From: Niallia alba
GTDB taxonomy: Bacteria; Bacillota; Bacilli; Bacillales; Cytobacillaceae
NCBI RefSeq assembly: GCF_012933555.1
Contig: NZ_JABBPK010000001.1
Coordinates: 4,194,001 to 4,258,000, forward strand
Length of the DNA: 64,000 nt
Direction: 5' to 3'
Positions within the stretch are counted from its first letter, which is position 1; each line of letters begins with the position of its first letter. Both the position numbers and the translations under genes were made by a program. The notes under the pieces are model-generated. The model worked only from the letters and a program-made list of their open reading frames with translations. It did not search any database and was not told the DNA's origin. This document shows positions 10,389 to 59,020 of the stretch, piece by piece.

Positions 10389-11958
10389 TAATTGAATCAA
10401 TTTCATAAATTAAATCCTTAGAGCCACAAGCTATCAAATGTACGAAAAAAGGAGTACCTCCCCAAAATGTCGAAATAAGTAAGCACCACACAAACTTATA
10501 AGACTGGAGGAAGACTCCCTATGACTATTATACGACAAGGAAGCCTATTTGACCTACAAGAATTATATAATTTAGAACCTACCCAACGTTTTGAAGCTAT
10601 TTTTTCTTCTATTGATATAGACCCAATCTTCGCTGTGGTAACGAAGAAATCACGTTTTGGAAGACCCGTTAAGTTGAACTATGCAGCGATGATTTATTCA
10701 CTCGTTGCTAGAATCACAGAGCGTATTTCATTTATTAAAGATTTAGTGAAAAGATTACAGAATGACATGATTTTTCGCCTTGATTGTGGCTTTTTAGTGT
10801 CAGATACTATTCCGTCAGAAGCAGCTTATTCCAGAATGGTCACAATCCTCAGTGAATCGAATGTACTTGAAAAAGTCCAAGGAACCTTGCTTCATCAAGC
10901 GATTTCAGAAGGTTTTATTTCCGATGACACAGTAGCCATTGACGCTACACACTTTCTCGCAAAAGATGGAGCACCACCAAAGGAAGAACAACCGAAAAGT
11001 GAACCGAAAAAGCGTGGGCGTAAATCAAAAGAAGAATATGAAAAATGGCTCATTGAAAAGGCGGAACTGGAAGCCAATCTGCCTCTTTTTGATAAAAAAA
11101 TCGAAGATCAGTTAGACATTCCTTTAGCCGACCTTCGAGCTGAAATTCCTCAAGATCCACAGTGGGGTGTGAAAAAAAACAGTGAAGGAAAAAACGTTTT
11201 TTGGTATGGATTTAAAGCTCATTTGGCTGTTGGAACATCCAGTCAATATATTCTTCAATCCCTTCTTTCTTCGGCCAACTTGAATGACGGAAAGGCTGCG
11301 ATTCCTTTATTAAAAGGAATTCATGAACGAATATCGCTTTCTTCTTTACTCTATGAAACAATGGACGCTGGTTACGATTTTGAAGCCGTTTATACGCAAA
11401 TACATCGAATGGGTCATCGAGCTGTGATTGCTTATAATAAACGCAATGAACCAGAACCAATTGGTTTTGATAAGCATTTCGCTCCTACTTGTGTCCGTGA
11501 ACATTCCTATCGCTATGATAGCTTTGAAGTAAAATATGAAACACTAAAATACACACGTCCAAACGAATGTAAAGACTGTCCACTAGCCAATGATGCTCTA
11601 TGTCAAAAGGTGTATAAAGTAAAAATCACTACAGATTTAAGAAAATTTACAGCGCCAGCACGTGGATCTCAAACATGGAAAAAAATCTTCAAAAGACGCA
11701 CGGCGGTAGAACGTGTGAATGCTTATCTTAAGGGATATTTCCAATTAAACAATGTTCGTTATCGTACAGGAAAAAAGGCTAAAGTCCATTTTGACCTCGT
11801 TACGTTAGTTTATAATGCTTCAAAATTAGCTGCAGACCGTCTTAATCAAATGTTAAATCAACAACAAGTTGCTTAATCAAAGTAAAAAAATTAAAAGGAA
11901 TTAAATTCTGCAAGTTTTTGATTTTTTAAAAGTTGGACTTATGAAATTGACTCAATTA
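10389..11958 (+). mobile_element. IS1182-family insertion sequence
   Basis: The element is bounded by imperfect inverted repeats: TAATTGAATCAATTTCATAA at the left and the complement of TAATTGAGTCAATTTCATAA at the right, one mismatch in 20. Length about 1570 bp with one intact transposase. No clear target duplication was found. It lies between tagO and the first WTA glycosyltransferase. Confidence 0.82.
10521..11876 (+). CDS. IS1182-family transposase
   Basis: A 451-residue DDE transposase. The N-terminal DUF772-type region (about 45-125) contains GRPVKLNYAAMIYSL. The central region has a charged linker (KKRGRKSKEEYEKW) and the catalytic region carries DATHF (first Asp), DAGYD (second Asp) and a C-terminal RTAVERVNAYLKGYF with the Glu. 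A Cys cluster (CKDCPLANDALC) is also typical. The start follows CTGGAGGAAGA. The frame is intact, so the element could be active. Confidence 0.92.
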   Translation: MTIIRQGSLFDLQELYNLEPTQRFEAIFSSIDIDPIFAVVTKKSRFGRPVKLNYAAMIYSLVARITERISFIKDLVKRLQNDMIFRLDCGFLVSDTIPSEAAYSRMVTILSESNVLEKVQGTLLHQAISEGFISDDTVAIDATHFLAKDGAPPKEEQPKSEPKKRGRKSKEEYEKWLIEKAELEANLPLFDKKIEDQLDIPLADLRAEIPQDPQWGVKKNSEGKNVFWYGFKAHLAVGTSSQYILQSLLSSANLNDGKAAIPLLKGIHERISLSSLLYETMDAGYDFEAVYTQIHRMGHRAVIAYNKRNEPEPIGFDKHFAPTCVREHSYRYDSFEVKYETLKYTRPNECKDCPLANDALCQKVYKVKITTDLRKFTAPARGSQTWKKIFKRRTAVERVNAYLKGYFQLNNVRYRTGKKAKVHFDLVTLVYNASKLAADRLNQMLNQQQVA

Positions 11959-16671: not shown

Positions 16672-17880
16672 TTGAAGGTGGATGAAGTGGAAACATTATA
16701 CAAACGTTGTGCTGGCTTGGATGTTCATTCAGAAACAATTGTAGCTTGCGTATTGTTGGGCGATTCAGAAGCAGATATGGAAAAAGAGACGGAGACTTTT
16801 CCAACTTTAACGAAGGATTTATTTCGTCTTCTTAAATGGCTAGAAGAAAAAGGGGTTACTCACATTGCCATGGAAAGTACGGGAGTGTATTGGAAACCAG
16901 TTTACAATATCTTAGAAGATTTTTTTGATATTACATTGGCTAATGCCCAAAGGATTAAAAACGTTCCAGGTAGGAAGACAGATGTTTCGGATGCAGAATG
17001 GATTGCCAAACTATTAAGACATGGGCTAATAGAGAAAAGTTTTGTCCCTCCAGAAGACTTTCGTAACCTACGAGATTTAACTCGACTCAGAAAGAAATGG
17101 ATTGGCCATATGACATCTGAGAAGAACCGAATTCAGAAAGTATTAGAGACTTCCAATATCAAACTAAGCACCGTTATTTCAGATGTATTTGGTGTATCAG
17201 GAAGGAAATTATTAGAACAACTTATGACTGAAGGTTATATAGATCAAGAAGAGGTGGAGAAAAAGATACATGGAAGAATGGCTCATAAAAAGCAATTAAT
17301 TGCAGATTCATTATTTGGTACATTAAATGACCATCAACTTTTTCTAATCAAACAATCTTGGATGCACATTATTTATCTTGAAGAACTAATATCTGATATT
17401 GAGAAAAGAATCGATAAGACCTTACTAAATTATCAGGAAGAAGTTCAGCTTCTAATCACGATGCCGGGTATTAAGAAAGATACAGCCGCAATTATTATTG
17501 CAGAAATAGGTGTAGACATGGAGCAATTTCCTACTTCTAAACATCTGGCTGCATGGGCAGGGCTGTCACCTGGAAATTATGAAAGTGCAGGAAAAAGGAA
17601 AAGCACACGAACATTAAGAGGAAATCCACATATTAAATCTGCATTGTGCGAGGCTGCATGGGCTGTTTCTAGGAGTCGAAATAAAAGATTAGGAATTAAA
17701 TATTGGTCGTTAGCTGCACGAAGAGGAAAGAAAAAAGCACTCGTTGCCATCGGACATCGAATGCTTACTATTGTCTATCACATGCTTCAAAACAAAGAAC
17801 CCTACCACGAGTTAACTTCCAATTAGCATCATAGACAAAAAATAGAAAAGTTATACGAGAAACCGTAAAATATGGTAGCT
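16430..17880 (+). mobile_element. IS110-family insertion sequence (ends approximate)
   Basis: An intact IS110-type transposase flanked by a long left non-coding stretch (about 240 bases) and a short right one. IS110 elements lack ordinary terminal inverted repeats and make no large target duplication, so the ends cannot be fixed from this window alone; the coordinates are estimates. It separates tagG from the fusion gene at 18042. Confidence 0.7.
16672..17826 (+). CDS. IS110-family DEDD transposase/recombinase
   Basis: A 384-residue transposase. The N-terminal RuvC-like DEDD domain shows AGLDVHSETIVACVL (first Asp), AMESTGVYW (Glu) and KTDVSDAEWIAKLL (Asp pair). The C-terminal Transposase_20 domain has ITMPGIKKDTAAIIIAEIG and WAGLSPGNYESAGKRKS with the candidate catalytic serine. 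Recent work shows that IS110 recombinases use a bridge RNA from the element's non-coding end to choose target and donor. The likely start is the TTG or ATG near 16672-16687 after TGAAGGTGG. Intact and probably active. Confidence 0.92.
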   Translation: MKVDEVETLYKRCAGLDVHSETIVACVLLGDSEADMEKETETFPTLTKDLFRLLKWLEEKGVTHIAMESTGVYWKPVYNILEDFFDITLANAQRIKNVPGRKTDVSDAEWIAKLLRHGLIEKSFVPPEDFRNLRDLTRLRKKWIGHMTSEKNRIQKVLETSNIKLSTVISDVFGVSGRKLLEQLMTEGYIDQEEVEKKIHGRMAHKKQLIADSLFGTLNDHQLFLIKQSWMHIIYLEELISDIEKRIDKTLLNYQEEVQLLITMPGIKKDTAAIIIAEIGVDMEQFPTSKHLAAWAGLSPGNYESAGKRKSTRTLRGNPHIKSALCEAAWAVSRSRNKRLGIKYWSLAARRGKKKALVAIGHRMLTIVYHMLQNKEPYHELTSN

Positions 17881-33155: not shown

Positions 33156-34493
33156 TTAAAAACCTCGTAAGGCTTGTAAAGCATGGTATATCGGCTTTCC
33201 TTTTTGCCGATTTAAATATGATAAATTATTTCTTGTTAGCTCTCCGACTGAACTCTTTAACTTTTCCACATAATATTTTGGCTGAGAAACAGAAGCGGTT
33301 TGATCGTTAGGGTTAATTCGTCCTAAAATCGTCTTGATTTCTAATTCATCCTTCATACCAACCATAAAGTCAATAAATGCTTGTATTCCTTTATCGCACC
33401 AGCTGCGGCCGTTTTTAAGCCGTTTAGCGAATACACTCATCGTTCCTTCCGCACTTCCCATTGGACGATAGTGGCTTGTGTCTATGTCTTTTTCCTTCAA
33501 CCATTCGCGATAATCTCCAAGGGCCTGAGGATATTTTGACAGCTGTTGTATGAACTCTTCTAACCGTTCTTCTTTCTTTTCGTTTTCAAGAGTACCAACT
33601 GCACTATTAAGTTCCACTAGGAATCCTTTCGCATCATATTGAGCCAGTTTCTTACGAATGACTCTATATCTCTTATGGCCTTTGAAAAGCGTTTTAACCT
33701 CACGAGCTACATGGAATCGGTCGATGACAAAGAATGCATTCTTATAGTGATCCTGACAAGCCGTAATCCACTGGGCTCCATCCCCATTAATTACGAGGTG
33801 ATGTTCACTCGGATTGTAGTTGTAATTATCTATTAAGAACTGCTCAAATCCTTCCCAGAACGCTTCTTTACCTTTGTGGACATAGTGACGTTTTGCGATT
33901 AAGGATGTTCGTTTCCCGTTGACTATCCAGCCCTCATGTACGGAAGCAATCTTTTCTTCCCGCCCACGTCGTTTTCCACGTTGCCTTTTCACATATAGTC
34001 CGTCTACTTCTACAAAGAGCACTTTCCTCAATTGGTCGGTCGGCTTGACGAAAGTAACTTCTGTTTGTAGAAGGTGTTGACGAATAGTCTCATGGCTGAT
34101 TACTTTGTAACCTAGAAGTTTCTCAATCATGGAGGAAGCATGACGATAGGATGTACCTTGAACTGCCATTTCCATTGCCATCGTTTCAACTAGGGGACTG
34201 AAACCTTTTGACCCCTCAAACTCTAAATAGTGATCAAGGAGATAAACGTATCCACCCTTTTCCCTGTCCCTATAGTAATTCCGATTGATGATAATAGAAC
34301 CGAATGAAGTATCCATCTCTACGGCTCGCTTATCCTGAAGGTAAAATCTCTTTTTATCTCTATTTTCTGCAATCTGTTGATCCATTTCTTCGAGTTGCTT
34401 CGTGAGAACTTCACCAAATGTCTTTTGAAGCATAACAAATAAATCTTTTTCCAGTTCTTTTAATGTGGGTAATTGTATGGTATCTTTTTTCAT
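33156..34493 (-). CDS. ISLre2-family (UPF0236) transposase
   Basis: A 445-residue transposase from the ATG at 34493, which has GAGGAG six bases upstream; a longer frame to 34562 is not needed. It contains the UPF0236 pattern: a DFxxR-like N-terminal region with YYRDREKGGYVYLLDHYL, LFVEVDGLYVKRQRGKRRGRE (first Asp), VINGDGAQWI (second Asp), FVIDRFHVAREV, and the C-terminal MGSAEGTMSVFAKRLKNGRSWC with the Glu. Intact, so probably active. Confidence 0.92.
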   Translation of the reverse strand: MKKDTIQLPTLKELEKDLFVMLQKTFGEVLTKQLEEMDQQIAENRDKKRFYLQDKRAVEMDTSFGSIIINRNYYRDREKGGYVYLLDHYLEFEGSKGFSPLVETMAMEMAVQGTSYRHASSMIEKLLGYKVISHETIRQHLLQTEVTFVKPTDQLRKVLFVEVDGLYVKRQRGKRRGREEKIASVHEGWIVNGKRTSLIAKRHYVHKGKEAFWEGFEQFLIDNYNYNPSEHHLVINGDGAQWITACQDHYKNAFFVIDRFHVAREVKTLFKGHKRYRVIRKKLAQYDAKGFLVELNSAVGTLENEKKEERLEEFIQQLSKYPQALGDYREWLKEKDIDTSHYRPMGSAEGTMSVFAKRLKNGRSWCDKGIQAFIDFMVGMKDELEIKTILGRINPNDQTASVSQPKYYVEKLKSSVGELTRNNLSYLNRQKGKPIYHALQALRGF

Positions 34494-34600
34494 AGGACTC
34501 CTCTTCCTTGTATTTGTGGTTTTCGCAGACTTTACTATACAAGAAGAGAGTCCTTTTTTCATTTGATTTTATTTTCCATCTACCGCACTTCCGTTTGGTG

Positions 34601-38541: not shown

Positions 38542-38597
38542 CAGAGAAAAAATACCTGACAAGGAGTTTTCCTTATCAGGTATTTTTCTCTGTTTTT
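38542..38597. terminator. Bidirectional terminator shared with the end of tagA
   Basis: CAGAGAAAAAATACCTGA pairs with TCAGGTATTTTTCTCTG, with T-runs on both sides. One arm contains the last codons and the TGA stop of tagA. Confidence 0.9.
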
Positions 38598-39328
38598 CTT
38601 TGCTTATAAATAGAATAGAAAAAAGCGAAATGCCCCACGAAATTTCGTTTCCATAATCTTCTCGGCTCTTTTCCCATTCGATATAGCCATTCGAGACGAA
38701 GGTCGCGAAAAATTTTAGGAGCTCTTGTAACTTCACCGGAAGAAAAGTCGATAAAAGCACCTACAGCCATTGTAATCGTGCTCTCAAGCTTTGATCGATG
38801 TTCCTTAATCCACTGTTCTTGTAGCGGCATTCCAAATCCTACTAAAAGGATATCTGCTTTACTCTTATTAATTTCTTCAATTATATTTTCTGTGGTTTCT
38901 TTCGGAAAATATCCATCCTGACAGCCTACAAAAAGGATATTATTATATTTTTCTTGAAGGCGTTCTTGTGCCTTTTGGGCAACACCAGGTTTCGCTCCTA
39001 AAAGAAAGACACGATATTGGTTACCCTTCTCTTCGTTTAAAGATTGAAATAATGCTGGAATTAAATCAGTGCCATTTAAATTCTCTTTAAAAGAAAATCC
39101 AAAAAACTTTGCTCCCATTTCGATACCGATTCCATCATTTAACAACAAATCAGCATTATTCAGTATGTCAAGATATGCTGAATCCTTTTGCGCAATATTG
39201 TATCCATGATCATTTAGGAAAAAAATATCCGAAGCTATTTTCTTCGCTAGTTTTTCTTTTATATAAGTAATAGCTTCCTTCGAGCTTAAAATATTTACTT
39301 TTACATTTCCTAACCATTTCTTATCCAT
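38576..39328 (-). CDS. tagA: TagA, ManNAc transferase of the WTA linkage unit
   Basis: A 250-residue GT26 enzyme (WecG/TagA) that adds ManNAc from UDP-ManNAc to the GlcNAc-PP-undecaprenol made by TagO. Family features: FLNDHGYN near residue 38, LLNDGIGIEMGAKFFG holding the catalytic Asp, NGTDLIP, FLLGAKPGVAQKA, VGCQDGYFP, DILLVGFGMPLQEQWI and AVGAFIDFSSGEVTRAPK. Length matches the family. It is separated from the other tag genes by about 7 kb, with galE, an IS and the amylopullulanase between. Confidence 0.94.
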   Translation of the reverse strand: MDKKWLGNVKVNILSSKEAITYIKEKLAKKIASDIFFLNDHGYNIAQKDSAYLDILNNADLLLNDGIGIEMGAKFFGFSFKENLNGTDLIPALFQSLNEEKGNQYRVFLLGAKPGVAQKAQERLQEKYNNILFVGCQDGYFPKETTENIIEEINKSKADILLVGFGMPLQEQWIKEHRSKLESTITMAVGAFIDFSSGEVTRAPKIFRDLRLEWLYRMGKEPRRLWKRNFVGHFAFFYSIYKQRKTEKNT

Positions 39329-39544
39329 TATGTATCCCCTAATGAAAAAATTTTAAAAAAGCCCCTTTCTATTATATAAAAATTGTCTGCTAGAAACAAT
39401 TCGAGCTAGAAATAGTTACTCTAAAAGCAGTAGAATACTGCGGACTTGTCCTAACTCTTTTGCTTCTGCCGACTATATTTGCTTTCCGAATAATTAATTA
39501 CTATAGATATGTTGGAATATGTCGAAACATTGTTTATGAAAAAG

Positions 39545-39574
39545 TTGTTAACTTTTGAACAATAGTGATAAAAT
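39545..39574 (+). promoter_or_regulatory. Candidate promoter of the riboswitch transcript
   Basis: TTGTTA and TAAAAT are 18 bases apart. Transcription would begin near 39581, just before the aptamer. Motif match is moderate. Confidence 0.4.
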
Positions 39575-39593
39575 TTAAATAGTACAATTATCA

Positions 39594-39676
39594 GATAAAG
39601 GCAAACCATCTGAAAAGGTGGGACGCAAAGCTTCAGGTCTAAGGTAGATTTATACTATGATGGCTGGGCCACCTTA
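39594..39676 (+). promoter_or_regulatory. Cyclic di-GMP-I (GEMM-I) riboswitch
   Basis: The segment contains the invariant GEMM-I parts in order: AAAGGCAAACC, a GAAA tetraloop (CTGAAAAGG), GGTGGGACGCAAAGC, a short stem, GGTCTAAGG, then ATGGCTGGGCCACC, which closes the second helix and receptor. This class binds c-di-GMP. Downstream, CCTTAT and ATAAGG (39672-39688) can form a hairpin covering part of the AAGGAGG ribosome binding site, and no T-run is present, so control of translation rather than termination is likely. The controlled gene starts at 39701. Confidence 0.92.
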
Positions 39677-39700
39677 TATTCTATAAGGAGGTTAATTATC

Positions 39701-39847
39701 ATGATTAATTTGTTTCCCACCAAAGTTTCAAAAGAAAGTAATTTGGACAATGAATGGATATCGCTCATAATGGAGGCAAAAGAACAAGGCTTTACGCAAG
39801 AAGAAGTTCGGGCTGTACTAACAATACTAGAAAAAGTCGATTGGTAA
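39701..39847 (+). CDS. SinI-like anti-repressor small protein
   Basis: A 48-residue protein starting MINLFPTKVSKESNLDNEW. The core DNEWISLIMEAKEQGFTQ followed by EEVRAVL matches the SinI dimerisation domain (B. subtilis SinI has LDQEWVELMVEAKEANISPEEIRKYL). SinI binds the biofilm repressor SinR and releases its targets. SinR is not in the window, so the partner is unknown. AAGGAGG lies 11 bases before the ATG. Expression is probably tied to c-di-GMP through the riboswitch just upstream, and a terminator follows at 39879. Its tail lacks the longer C-terminus of B. subtilis SinI. Confidence 0.83.
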   Translation: MINLFPTKVSKESNLDNEWISLIMEAKEQGFTQEEVRAVLTILEKVDW

Positions 39848-39878
39848 AATATCAGAATATTCGATAATTATAGCGATT

Positions 39879-39918
39879 CATCCTTAATAGGAAATTTCTT
39901 TATTAAGGATGTTTTTTC
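39879..39918 (+). terminator. Terminator of the SinI-like gene
   Basis: CATCCTTAATA pairs with TATTAAGGATG and TTTTTTCTTT follows. Confidence 0.9.
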
Positions 39919-40009
39919 TTTCTCTTCTCTACGTTGATAACCTTCTGTATTATCCTTCCCCTTAAATCCTTACTAGAATTTTCCGTATTTATTATTGAAC
40001 TACCAGCAA

Positions 40010-53696: not shown

Positions 53697-54678
53697 GTGA
53701 GCAAAGCGTTTAGCAACTTGTTAAAGCATATAGACAAATTACCACACCCAAAAAGAACAAGTGTATCAATGGGTTAAACGCTATGTTGACCCTTCTTCCT
53801 CGGCTGGTGGTCGGTTAATCAATGAAATGAGGGACACGTTGTTCGGTTCGGCAAAGTTAAGGGTCATCAACGGTATCGTTGCAAAAGTTGCAGAAAGACC
53901 TTTACAGATACAACTAATACAGTTCTTTATCGCACACGAAAAGGTAACGAATGGATTACATTTGTTGATTGTATGTTCAAAGGATATTCCCTACGAAAAT
54001 CGGCTGACATCGTTGGGGTAACTTGGGTTACGCTTTTTTACTGGCGGCATAAACTACTGACTGCTTTAAAACAAATGGATGTTGAACATTTTTGAAGGTA
54101 TCGTTGAAATTGACGAGACCTATTTCCTATACTCTCAAAAGGGGCAACGTGGCATCGCTGACCGTAAACCTCGCAAACGTGGCGGTAAATCCAAGCTCAG
54201 AGGAATCAGCCACGAACAGGTTTGTGTTCTCGTTGCCAGAGACCGAACTAAATCAACTATCTCCAAAGTTGCCTGTATGGGGCGTATTGTAAAACCGAAA
54301 GTCGATGCCTTGATTGGTTCTAAACTTTCAAACGAGAATGTGATTGTAACCGATGCGTGGAGAGCCTATAAAACCTATGCAAAAGAAAAAGGTTTAGAGC
54401 ATTATCGGATAAAATCTGATAATGGAAAACACGTTATTAAGGGCTTATATCACATCCAGAACGTCAATGGTCTCCATTCTCGTTTAAAACAATGGATAAA
54501 TCGCTTTAAAGGTGTGGCTACGAAATATCTTGATAATTACCTTGCTTGGTTGTTATTTGTCGATAGTCGTAGTAACGAAAGCACTAATCAACATTTAAAA
54601 GAGTTCCTATTAACATCATTTGTGTTTGAAATGACTGACACATATGATAGTTTGAGGCTATCAAAATTTAATGTGTAG
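53697..54678 (+). pseudogene. Decayed IS1595-family transposase
   Basis: The protein is split over at least four reading-frame pieces. It starts with GTG at 53697 (after GGGGAGG), reading MSKAFSNLLKHIDKL, then shifts near 53760 to EQVYQWVKRYVDPSS, near 53850 to KVKGHQRYRCKSCRKTF (zinc-ribbon half), and near 54093 to the catalytic part EGIVEIDETYF (first Asp/Glu), VTDAWRAYKTY (second Asp) and NVNGLHSRLKQWINRFKGV with the His and Glu (DDNK/E type). With several shifts in a row the protein cannot be made; the element is not self-mobile. Confidence 0.85.
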
Positions 54679-57615: not shown

Positions 57616-59020
57616 CACTAGTGTTGCATAAATAGTGTCATAATTTTCAGTTTACTCACCTTCCCTGTTTAGAGGCAAAAAAGTAAATACCCAATCAAAG
57701 GTGGCCCCATCCATTTGGAAATTTATTTACAATTAGACTTTTGCAACGACGACAATTTGCATATTTAAGGGATGGCTTTTCCTTCAATCTTTCGAAGCCA
57801 AACATTCGCTGGTTTCCACAATGCAGCCCTTAGATAACGGCTAATCTGTAAGGTTTTTCGCTTGCTTCTGGTCTCGATTTGCACGAGAACATGTAGGCAA
57901 AAAACAATTAGTGCGATAAATACTTGATTTTGAATCGCCCATTCGCTTTGACCGTAGAACTTTTTGATGCTGAGATGTTGTTTGATCCATTTAAAAAACA
58001 GCTCAATTGCCCACCGTGATTTATACATTTCTGAAATTTCTTCGGCGCTTAAATCAAAACGATTTGTAATTAAATGAAGTTCATTTCCTTTTGAGTCCAT
58101 CACTTTTAGAAGCCGAAAGTAATTTTCAGCACGGTTTTGAGTCGTACCTATCAACACCATTTGGTCTGATAAAACAGCTGTATCCTTGGGTAGCTTAAAA
58201 TCGTAAACGTTCCGTATGACTGCATTTTTGCGTAGCCGTGAAAGAAAGAAGTAGCCATCATCAGTCATGCGATCAAAGCGCTCGTAGTCTAGATAACCAC
58301 GGTCAAACACATACATGCATTCCTTGTCATCCACCATGATTTCAAGCTGACCACGGTCATGTTCTTTTGCCGTTGTCATAACGGCCTTTTCAGGATAGGA
58401 TATACCCTTTTCCATAAACACAAGGCGCAAATGTAACTTTACACCTGCTTTTGTTTTGCGGAATTTAGCCCATTTATGATTGGTCAAATTAAGTGGCAAT
58501 GTGCTTGAATCAATGATTTTTAACGGCATCACGAGTTTCGTGTAATGCGTTTTGGCATGAATTTGTGACACTAAATCAAGGAAAAGCCTTTGAAATAGAT
58601 CAGGGTTTATGCCGTTTAACCGCCGTGACAACTGAGAAATACTAATAGAATCAAGGTCTATCCCTTTTTGAAGCTGGTCATCGAAAAGACAATCACCCAG
58701 CGCATGCAGACTTTCAATTTCTTGTAGCTGCGCAAAAAGTAGTAATTTTAGAAATGACTCTGTCGTTAATTTTTTCGTATAGTAATCTAATTTCATCGTT
58801 TTCACGTTTTCTTCAAATAATTGAAGATTTATAGGTGAAAACCATTGTCCAAATGAAGTTTTTCGTGTAATCTTGTCCATGTGATGGTCCTTTTTTAGTG
58901 GATTTGGACGGGTTACCACCTGACTAATCCATTATAAAGGACTTTTTCTTTGCGCAAAATAATAATATTGAACATTTTGAGTATTTTTAATAGTGAATTT
59001 AAATTAATGCAACACTAGTG
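57616..59020 (-). mobile_element. IS4-family insertion sequence, complete
   Basis: Inverted repeats CACTAGTGTTGCAT are at both ends. AGGGGAGGT is repeated exactly at 57607-57615 and 59021-59029, a 9-bp target duplication. Length 1405 bp with an intact transposase. The insertion lies about 50 bp upstream of the GAP1-like start codon. Confidence 0.9.
57765..58880 (-). CDS. IS4-family transposase
   Basis: A 371-residue DDE transposase from the ATG at 58880 (AAAAGGACC upstream); a longer frame to 58919 is less likely. First Asp in PLKIIDSSTLPL, second in YVFDRGYLDY, and the YREK signature in YKSRWAIELFFKWIKQHL (Y-x2-R-x3-E-x6-K), which is diagnostic for IS4 proteins. The frame is complete. Confidence 0.93.
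   Translation of the reverse strand: MDKITRKTSFGQWFSPINLQLFEENVKTMKLDYYTKKLTTESFLKLLLFAQLQEIESLHALGDCLFDDQLQKGIDLDSISISQLSRRLNGINPDLFQRLFLDLVSQIHAKTHYTKLVMPLKIIDSSTLPLNLTNHKWAKFRKTKAGVKLHLRLVFMEKGISYPEKAVMTTAKEHDRGQLEIMVDDKECMYVFDRGYLDYERFDRMTDDGYFFLSRLRKNAVIRNVYDFKLPKDTAVLSDQMVLIGTTQNRAENYFRLLKVMDSKGNELHLITNRFDLSAEEISEMYKSRWAIELFFKWIKQHLSIKKFYGQSEWAIQNQVFIALIVFCLHVLVQIETRSKRKTLQISRYLRAALWKPANVWLRKIEGKAIP

Follow-up and report, generated by a model that had tools for sequence, protein, structure and literature searches.

The window, the whole 64,000-nucleotide stretch of Niallia alba DNA analysed here, probably carries a doubly gated, monocistronic gene for a SinI-family anti-repressor whose translation is switched on by c-di-GMP through a GEMM-I riboswitch. 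The locus belongs to a second type of riboswitch-sinI unit, which is kept in all 13 sampled genomes of the genus, is linked to tagA and stands apart from sinR. The evidence comes from the aptamer, the conserved pairing between the aptamer's 3' end and the Shine-Dalgarno (SD) sequence, and the recurrence of the arrangement in related genomes.

The locus and its aptamer

A sequence-only reading of this DNA had placed a c-di-GMP riboswitch and a SinI-like frame in one unit at 39545-39918. This span fits, as it runs from a -35-like hexamer through the tail of a terminator-like site. All parts of the unit lie on the forward strand. A putative Spo0A box, TGTCGAA (39520-39526), matches the consensus perfectly and is followed by a sigma-A-type promoter found by a promoter-site scan (39545-39574; TTGTTA, an 18-nt spacer and TAAAAT, with the TG of an extended -10 preceding the second hexamer). 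The promoter has 9 of 12 hexamer matches, and the six promoter-like sites of this region are only mildly above the 3.1 expected by chance. The aptamer (39590-39676), an anti-SD hairpin (39672-39688) and the SD sequence AAGGAGG (39685-39691), read directly from the sequence, come next, the last of these 9 nt 5' of the ATG of a 48-aa SinI-family frame (39701-39847). The terminator proposed in the sequence-only reading was located 3' of this frame as a 13-pair stem (39879-39911) and a T-rich tail (site 39879-39919); we term it terminator-like, as the scan found one such site here against 0.4 expected from shuffles. On the opposite strand, a gene for a WecG/TagA/CpsF-type glycosyltransferase ('tagA', 38576-39328) lies 5' of the unit and genes for an SSB protein and a phosphoglucomutase lie 3' of it. 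The unit looks monocistronic.

The window also contains five open reading frames that we take to be transposase-like (10521-11876, 16672-17826, 33156-34562, 54079-54678 and 57765-58919), dispersed across its cell-wall polymer and glycosyltransferase region. We considered whether the unit is a cassette carried by a plasmid or spread recently, and rejected this, with no plasmid match found and a tagA neighbour at 12 of 13 loci of the window's type.

To examine the aptamer, the Rfam covariance models were searched against the window. RF01051 matched 39590-39676 over the whole model with 78.2 bits (gathering score 35, E 1.1e-13), which upholds the GEMM-I assignment made from the letters alone. Over the 64 kb no other Rfam family is listed above threshold, after omission of one overlapping match from the same clan. 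Of the 22 consensus pairs, 20 are standard pairs in the window. The 5.24 Mb genome contains six GEMM-I aptamers, two of which precede SinI-family frames, and a chance aptamer was ruled out by these six together with the score. The genome also has ten GGDEF matches and therefore likely makes c-di-GMP.

The predicted ligand-contact bases are G39601, A39628 and C39672, and a GAAA tetraloop lies at 39612-39615. By alignment these bases are equivalent to G20, A47 and C92 of Vc2; the mapping was inferred from the alignment and from the corresponding bases of Bc1 named in the retrieved text of PMC11218506. None of the three varies across the 43 aptamers aligned, of which 41 belong to sinI and two to other genes. 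A variant GEMM-I aptamer with another ligand appears extremely unlikely. Of the 76 sinI aptamers with an Rfam match (those of 75 survey loci and the second one of the window genome), 17 fit RF03167 (c-di-GMP-I-GGC) best, but RF01051 is the best model for the window aptamer, and its G, A and C are the same as those of Vc2 and of Bc1 as given in that text (PMC11218506). The 17 survey loci at which RF03167 beats RF01051 in clan competition include L032, L058, L070 and L250, and the six RF03167-type sinI aptamers in one alignment (A3) retain the G/A/C contact bases. Six sinI GEMM-I aptamers (L099, L102, L132, L136, L156 and L159) are about 140-165 nt long compared to the usual 85-95, with an insertion of about 50-75 nt.

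The expression platform and the predicted direction of the switch

The hairpin joins CCUUAU (39672-39677) to AUAAGG (39683-39688) and covers the AAGG of the SD sequence AAGGAGG, so that the masking of the ribosome binding site noticed in the sequence-only reading can now be assigned to particular bases. C39672 and C39673 close the aptamer and also pair with the SD sequence. Ligand binding and masking should therefore be mutually exclusive, because both use these two bases.

We examined the same feature in 68 sinI leaders, which are the 69 leaders of the survey minus L112, whose start was not assigned by the script. The terminal C of the aptamer pairs with the SD sequence at a probability above 0.5 in 63 of them, and the pairing of CC with the SD sequence is absent in five. 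Blocking both Cs raised the mean SD accessibility from 0.46 to 0.74 over the 68 leaders, and only from 0.33 to 0.50 in the window leader. The automatic choice of start fell on ATT in 22 of the 68, where an upstream TTG or GTG is likelier, and some of the SD-start spacings are consequently approximate.

The hairpin was then compared with shuffled sequences. Among 46 distinct platforms it outperforms 95% of interior shuffles in 32 and falls below that mark in 14; the window's own value is 0.045. Covariation was computed after these 46 platforms had been put through a plain MAFFT alignment. The paired fraction of cells (93.4% against a shuffled mean of 86.4%), the number of double-change cells (15 against 4.0) and the covariation score (0.214 against 0.124) were each reached by 0 of 500 shuffles, and the two remaining measures by 8 and 2 of 500. 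When the hairpin partner was slid along the alignment, at most 56.9% of cells were paired. The window arm CCUUAU differs in sequence from the arms of the other type (CCUGGAAUAC and others), and the pairing is retained.

A transcription-termination platform was tried and rejected. A stem with a U-run between the aptamer CC and the start was found in 0 of the 68 sinI leaders, and the stem at 39879 lies 3' of the frame. As a comparison, 24 GEMM-I leaders that precede other genes were taken (four from the window genome and the first 20 of our GEMM-I list); 15 of them had a terminator within 170 nt. In these controls an SD sequence was found in 14, and the terminal CC pairs with it in three of those. 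The terminator comparison is to be read with its search lengths, as the scan spanned about 20-45 nt in the sinI leaders compared to 170 nt in the controls; in control L001 it also overlooked a terminator-like stem that can be made out by eye.

For the window leader, the energy model gives -26.4 kcal/mol when the aptamer is folded together with the anti-SD hairpin, compared to -21.3 kcal/mol for the fold with P1, which is only 3 bp long here. This advantage of 5.1 kcal/mol suggests that the default, ligand-free state is masked. At -5.2 kcal/mol the window hairpin is one of the weak ones, the z-score of the leader is only -1.91, and 7 of 200 shuffles fold equally well. The unconstrained minimum-energy fold (-30.8 kcal/mol) retains the hairpin and misfolds the second arm of the aptamer. 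With the default state masked, the ligand taking the two Cs and terminators absent from the leaders, we predict a translational ON switch. The sequence-only reading had left the direction open; the terminal C shared by aptamer and anti-SD hairpin now gives it a predicted sign.

The opposite direction, in which c-di-GMP lowers SinI, would be favoured by a further feature of the model. When P1 is enforced, the bases around the start codon become paired in an A-U hairpin, which could blunt the ON state if the model is right. A reduction of translation upon ligand binding is also suggested for Bc1 in the retrieved text of PMC11218506. We nevertheless consider an OFF switch very unlikely, since the aptamer-closing C pairs with the SD sequence in nearly all leaders, with covariation, and since the ligand-free leader prefers the anti-SD fold.

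It is also conceivable that the aptamer binds c-di-GMP and that the switch is idle or saturated in vivo, the output of sinI being set by Spo0A alone. There is a precedent in Bc1 of B. thuringiensis, which, according to the same retrieved text, binds c-di-GMP with downstream expression independent of its level (PMC11218506). The weakness of the window hairpin and the presence of a promoter with a perfect 0A box agree with such a view. An idle element, in contrast, needs neither compensatory changes in its anti-SD pairing nor contact bases that are invariant across all 43 aligned aptamers. For these reasons we judge the idle switch unlikely and retain the ON switch as our reading.

A second type of riboswitch-sinI locus and its Spo0A box

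The 48-aa protein scores 35.1 bits against PF08671 (SinI; cut-off 31.4) over residues 15-37. A phmmer search of the PDB retrieved B. subtilis SinI as 5tmx_A (E 2.3e-4) and 1b0n_B (E 2.4e-4), after a top-ranking protein that had been designed de novo (8vl4_A, E 2.1e-4). Against the NCBI equivalog for Bacillus SinI (NF046031) it scores 30.9 bits with a cut-off of 80, so we file it as a SinI-family protein and not as a SinI orthologue. The 48-residue SinI-like frame of the sequence-only reading thus stands as a member of the family; as the sinR-linked sinI it does not, and it is better described as a paralogue located away from sinR. D16, W19, L22, A26 and G30 are invariant across 16 SinI-like proteins.

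The window genome has a second riboswitch-sinI (L005) with its aptamer at C1:835480-835564. Its SinI has 49 aa, a GTG start and a PF08671 score of 45.6 bits, and a convergent gene 3' of it encodes a 116-aa SinR-like protein with HTH_3 and SinI domains. Elsewhere in the genome are two further HTH_3 proteins with a SinI-like C-terminus, of 106 and 109 aa; the SinI part of the latter scores 27.7 bits, compared to the Pfam cut-off of 31.4.

This division extends to the other genomes. We use 'window-type' as our label for the 13 loci with the CCTTAT arm, which occur once per genome in 13 of 13 sampled genomes of the window's genus. The unit of aptamer, hairpin and frame is therefore more than a chance assembly. 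A divergent tagA match accompanies 12 of the 13, beginning 196-361 bp 5' of the aptamer, and sinR was found in the fetched flanks (about 1.2-1.5 kb) of 0 of the 13. The remaining 56 of the 69 leaders are not window-type, and a convergent sinR lies downstream in 45 of these 56. L085 and L100 differ in that sinR lies upstream of the riboswitch-sinI unit and shares its strand, rather than following it in convergent orientation. The 13 window-type proteins have in common an N-terminal [IL]NL[FL]P stretch that is absent from the other aligned SinI proteins; in the window it falls within 39701-39730.

These observations bear on the identity of the partner. The riboswitch may work as proposed while the 48-aa protein binds another SinR-like or SlrR-like protein, or a different partner altogether. 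Its distance from the NCBI SinI equivalog, the three HTH_3 proteins with a SinI-like C-terminus, the sinR-free flanks of the window-type loci, the distinct N-terminus and the separate sinR-linked SinI in the same genome all point in that direction. The region that aligns with SinI of the SinI/SinR complex entry 1b0n is retained, however, and so are the five invariant residues. We regard a different partner as rather improbable, with enough in its favour to be kept in mind, and continue with a SinR-type repressor as the partner.

The consensus of the Spo0A box is TGNCGAA, and sinI of B. subtilis is controlled by Spo0A~P. To determine how regularly the box occurs, we searched the 69 leaders. A forward box within 150 bp was present in 25 of them against 1.3 expected from shuffles, and a reverse box in 0 of 69; the leaders are related, so that 25 against 1.3 is not a probability. 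A TGTCGAA-type box together with the extended -10 TG[AG]TAAAAT was found in 13 of 13 window-type loci, which are orthologues and not independent trials. The first base of the box lies 46-47 nt 5' of the extended -10 in each of the 13, even though anything from 69 to 128 nt separates the box from the aptamer. This fixed spacing is a stronger argument than the count. The arrangement suggests a double gate with Spo0A~P for transcription and c-di-GMP for translation, as far as sequence can indicate. The sequence-only reading had set the locus against the Spo0A~P-dependent sinI of B. subtilis; control at the RNA level does appear to be added, and the perfect box indicates that Spo0A control was probably kept and not replaced. 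SinR operators have a motif of the GTTCTYT type, and no match of this type was found in 39329-39600, between tagA and sinI.

Together, these results allow a mechanism to be proposed. Spo0A~P would bind TGTCGAA upstream of the extended -10 promoter and turn transcription on. Without c-di-GMP, the 3' CC of the aptamer would pair with the SD sequence and translation would be off; with c-di-GMP bound, C39672 would become a ligand contact, C39673 would enter P1, the hairpin would open and ribosomes could enter. The structure in this step is supported by sequence and comparison, and from it we infer the ligand response. The 48-residue protein, judged by its family, would then bind a SinR-type repressor of the same genome and relieve the repression of matrix genes, so that a combination of high c-di-GMP and Spo0A~P would favour biofilm. 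The earlier proposal that c-di-GMP sets the level of a SinR antagonist at the RNA level is accordingly worded here as control of the output of a SinI-like protein, for which the comparative evidence speaks.

Distribution in relatives and comparison with known systems

To determine how widely the arrangement occurs, we used the 48-aa protein as query against 151 genomes of the window's family (E <= 1e-3). A match was found in 100 genomes and none in 51; the query was the window's own SinI, so other SinI genes are under-counted. We examined 120 loci from 95 genomes (L019-L128, 110 loci, and L248-L257, ten loci), comprising frames up to about 101 aa and L029 (frame 132). Longer SinR-like frames were left out, and the 95 genomes fall short of the 100 because five had such long frames only. 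RF01051 or RF03167 lies directly 5' of the SinI-like frame at 75 of the 120 loci (68 of 110 and 7 of 10), which places the pair in 70 of 95 genomes and 13 of 16 genera examined. The arrangement proposed for a survey by the sequence-only reading therefore recurs. Adjacency of aptamer and frame was scripted for 68 of the 69 leaders, judged by eye for L112 and taken from coordinates for seven.

An Rfam-level GEMM-I upstream was found at none of the other 45 of the 120 loci, which suggests that control of small SinI-like genes differs between genera. R1, a model for which 41 sinI aptamers and two further ones from the window genome were used, gave three weak matches on these 45, the best with 23.5 bits (L098, not counted). 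The aptamer-less loci (L031, L033, L041 and others) include all five examined genomes of genus g10 and 7 of the 14 of genus g24.

A second survey searched named genomes (84,980 species) for the hairpin only, as TGCC, 3-4 nt, ATAC, 3-8 nt, GTATTTT and an SD sequence, with neither aptamer nor protein in the query. It returned at least 119 loci (L129-L247). Among the matches listed, a motif script found a SinI-like frame 3' of the hairpin in 115 of 119; of the four it missed, L228 is SinI-like by eye, and L137, L198 and L242, which are non-Bacillaceae records, look like chance. R1 finds an aptamer in 106 of the 119 listed (70 of 80 and 36 of 39), superseding a crude aptamer pattern that had matched 62 of 80 named loci; its matches in L132, L159, L189 and L195 are incomplete, stopping about 75-113 nt before the hairpin motif. 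Going by record titles, the genera among the matches listed include Mesobacillus, Cytobacillus, Neobacillus, Rossellomorea, Metabacillus, Peribacillus, Sutcliffiella, Lederbergia, Robertmurraya, Oceanobacillus, Gracilibacillus and Aquibacillus. The two surveys overlap (L177 and L053, for example) and are not independent. Two records with a Bacillaceae-type riboswitch-sinI, L140 (JAGGQZ010000017.1, titled Chryseobacterium sp. ISL-80) and L241 (JAGGRA010000035.1, titled Pseudomonas sp. ISL-84), are probably mislabelled.

The 13 listed loci without an aptamer comprise the three chance matches, L139, where the locus ends, and nine loci of the B. pumilus group (L135, L141, L163, L164, L174, L175, L190, L212 and L218; B. 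pumilus, safensis, stratosphericus, xiamenensis, zhangzhouensis, australimaris and altitudinis). These nine keep the CC-to-SD hairpin at sinI with the R1 aptamer absent. In the seven loci that were read, nothing more than scrambled aptamer-like pieces (such as GACGCAAGC) is present upstream. It is possible, from these remnants, that the sinI leader of the group is a decayed riboswitch.

The paradigm for sinI, drawn from B. subtilis, is control by Spo0A only. A broader proposal, on which we are tentative and which we would place somewhat short of even, is that much of the Bacillaceae uses an AND gate at the RNA level, that the Spo0A-only sinI of B. subtilis is derived, and that the B. pumilus group, with its anti-SD hairpin kept and its aptamer-like stretch scrambled, is an intermediate of loss. 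If this is true, Spo0A~P makes the sinI mRNA, c-di-GMP licenses its translation, and the SinI/SinR switch is a direct target of the second messenger. To our knowledge, the route by which c-di-GMP reaches the matrix switch in B. subtilis is not clear. With the riboswitch, translation of a SinR antagonist would come under the direct control of c-di-GMP in many genera, through a conserved platform. Because the riboswitch would act on SinI translation, the link between second messenger and biofilm commitment is testable with one reporter and a two-base mutation.

The window protein and B. subtilis SinI have the SinI-family core in common (structures 1b0n and 5tmx), and the Spo0A box of the window corresponds to the Spo0A~P control of B. 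subtilis sinI. In contrast, B. subtilis sinI adjoins sinR and the window copy does not, and none of 14 control genomes, B. subtilis among them, had a GEMM-I match, whereas the window has the riboswitch. Vc2 is a translational c-di-GMP-I riboswitch, and riboswitches of its type have the aptamer class and the contact bases in common with the window. The window differs from them in its target, a protein antagonist of a biofilm repressor, and in having a very short platform whose anti-SD strand is the terminal CC of the aptamer itself. This is a compact design, as the ligand-contact base is itself an anti-SD base. Bc1 of B. thuringiensis is of the same aptamer class and likewise from a Bacillaceae host, but it has a 220-nt platform with two terminators and lies upstream of mcpE (retrieved text of PMC11218506, in which 'sinI' is absent). 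A microarray of B. thuringiensis cited in the available portion of PMC7793685 showed that sinI rose when a c-di-GMP-making enzyme was overproduced, at the level of mRNA and in another species.

A search of open-licence PMC papers returned no experimental study of a c-di-GMP riboswitch-sinI pair, which is weak evidence of absence; the conserved platform, its breadth, the second type and the Spo0A box were likewise not found described in the parts of these papers retrieved. The sequence-only reading knew of no characterised case of the pairing. It is in print as one table entry, '(c-di-GMP)-sinI' at BMMGA3_08510 of MGA3, in Table 4 of an RNA-seq paper on Bacillus methanolicus, and in the text retrieved the pair is listed with neither mechanism nor test (PMC4342826). 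Our survey locus L066 is very probably this locus; it scores 82.2 bits with RF01051 and has an anti-SD hairpin of the same kind as the window's. As in the window, a c-di-GMP riboswitch precedes sinI in B. methanolicus MGA3 (PMC4342826, by its table entry). The B. methanolicus locus is of the sinR-linked type, whereas the window copy is of the tagA-linked second type.
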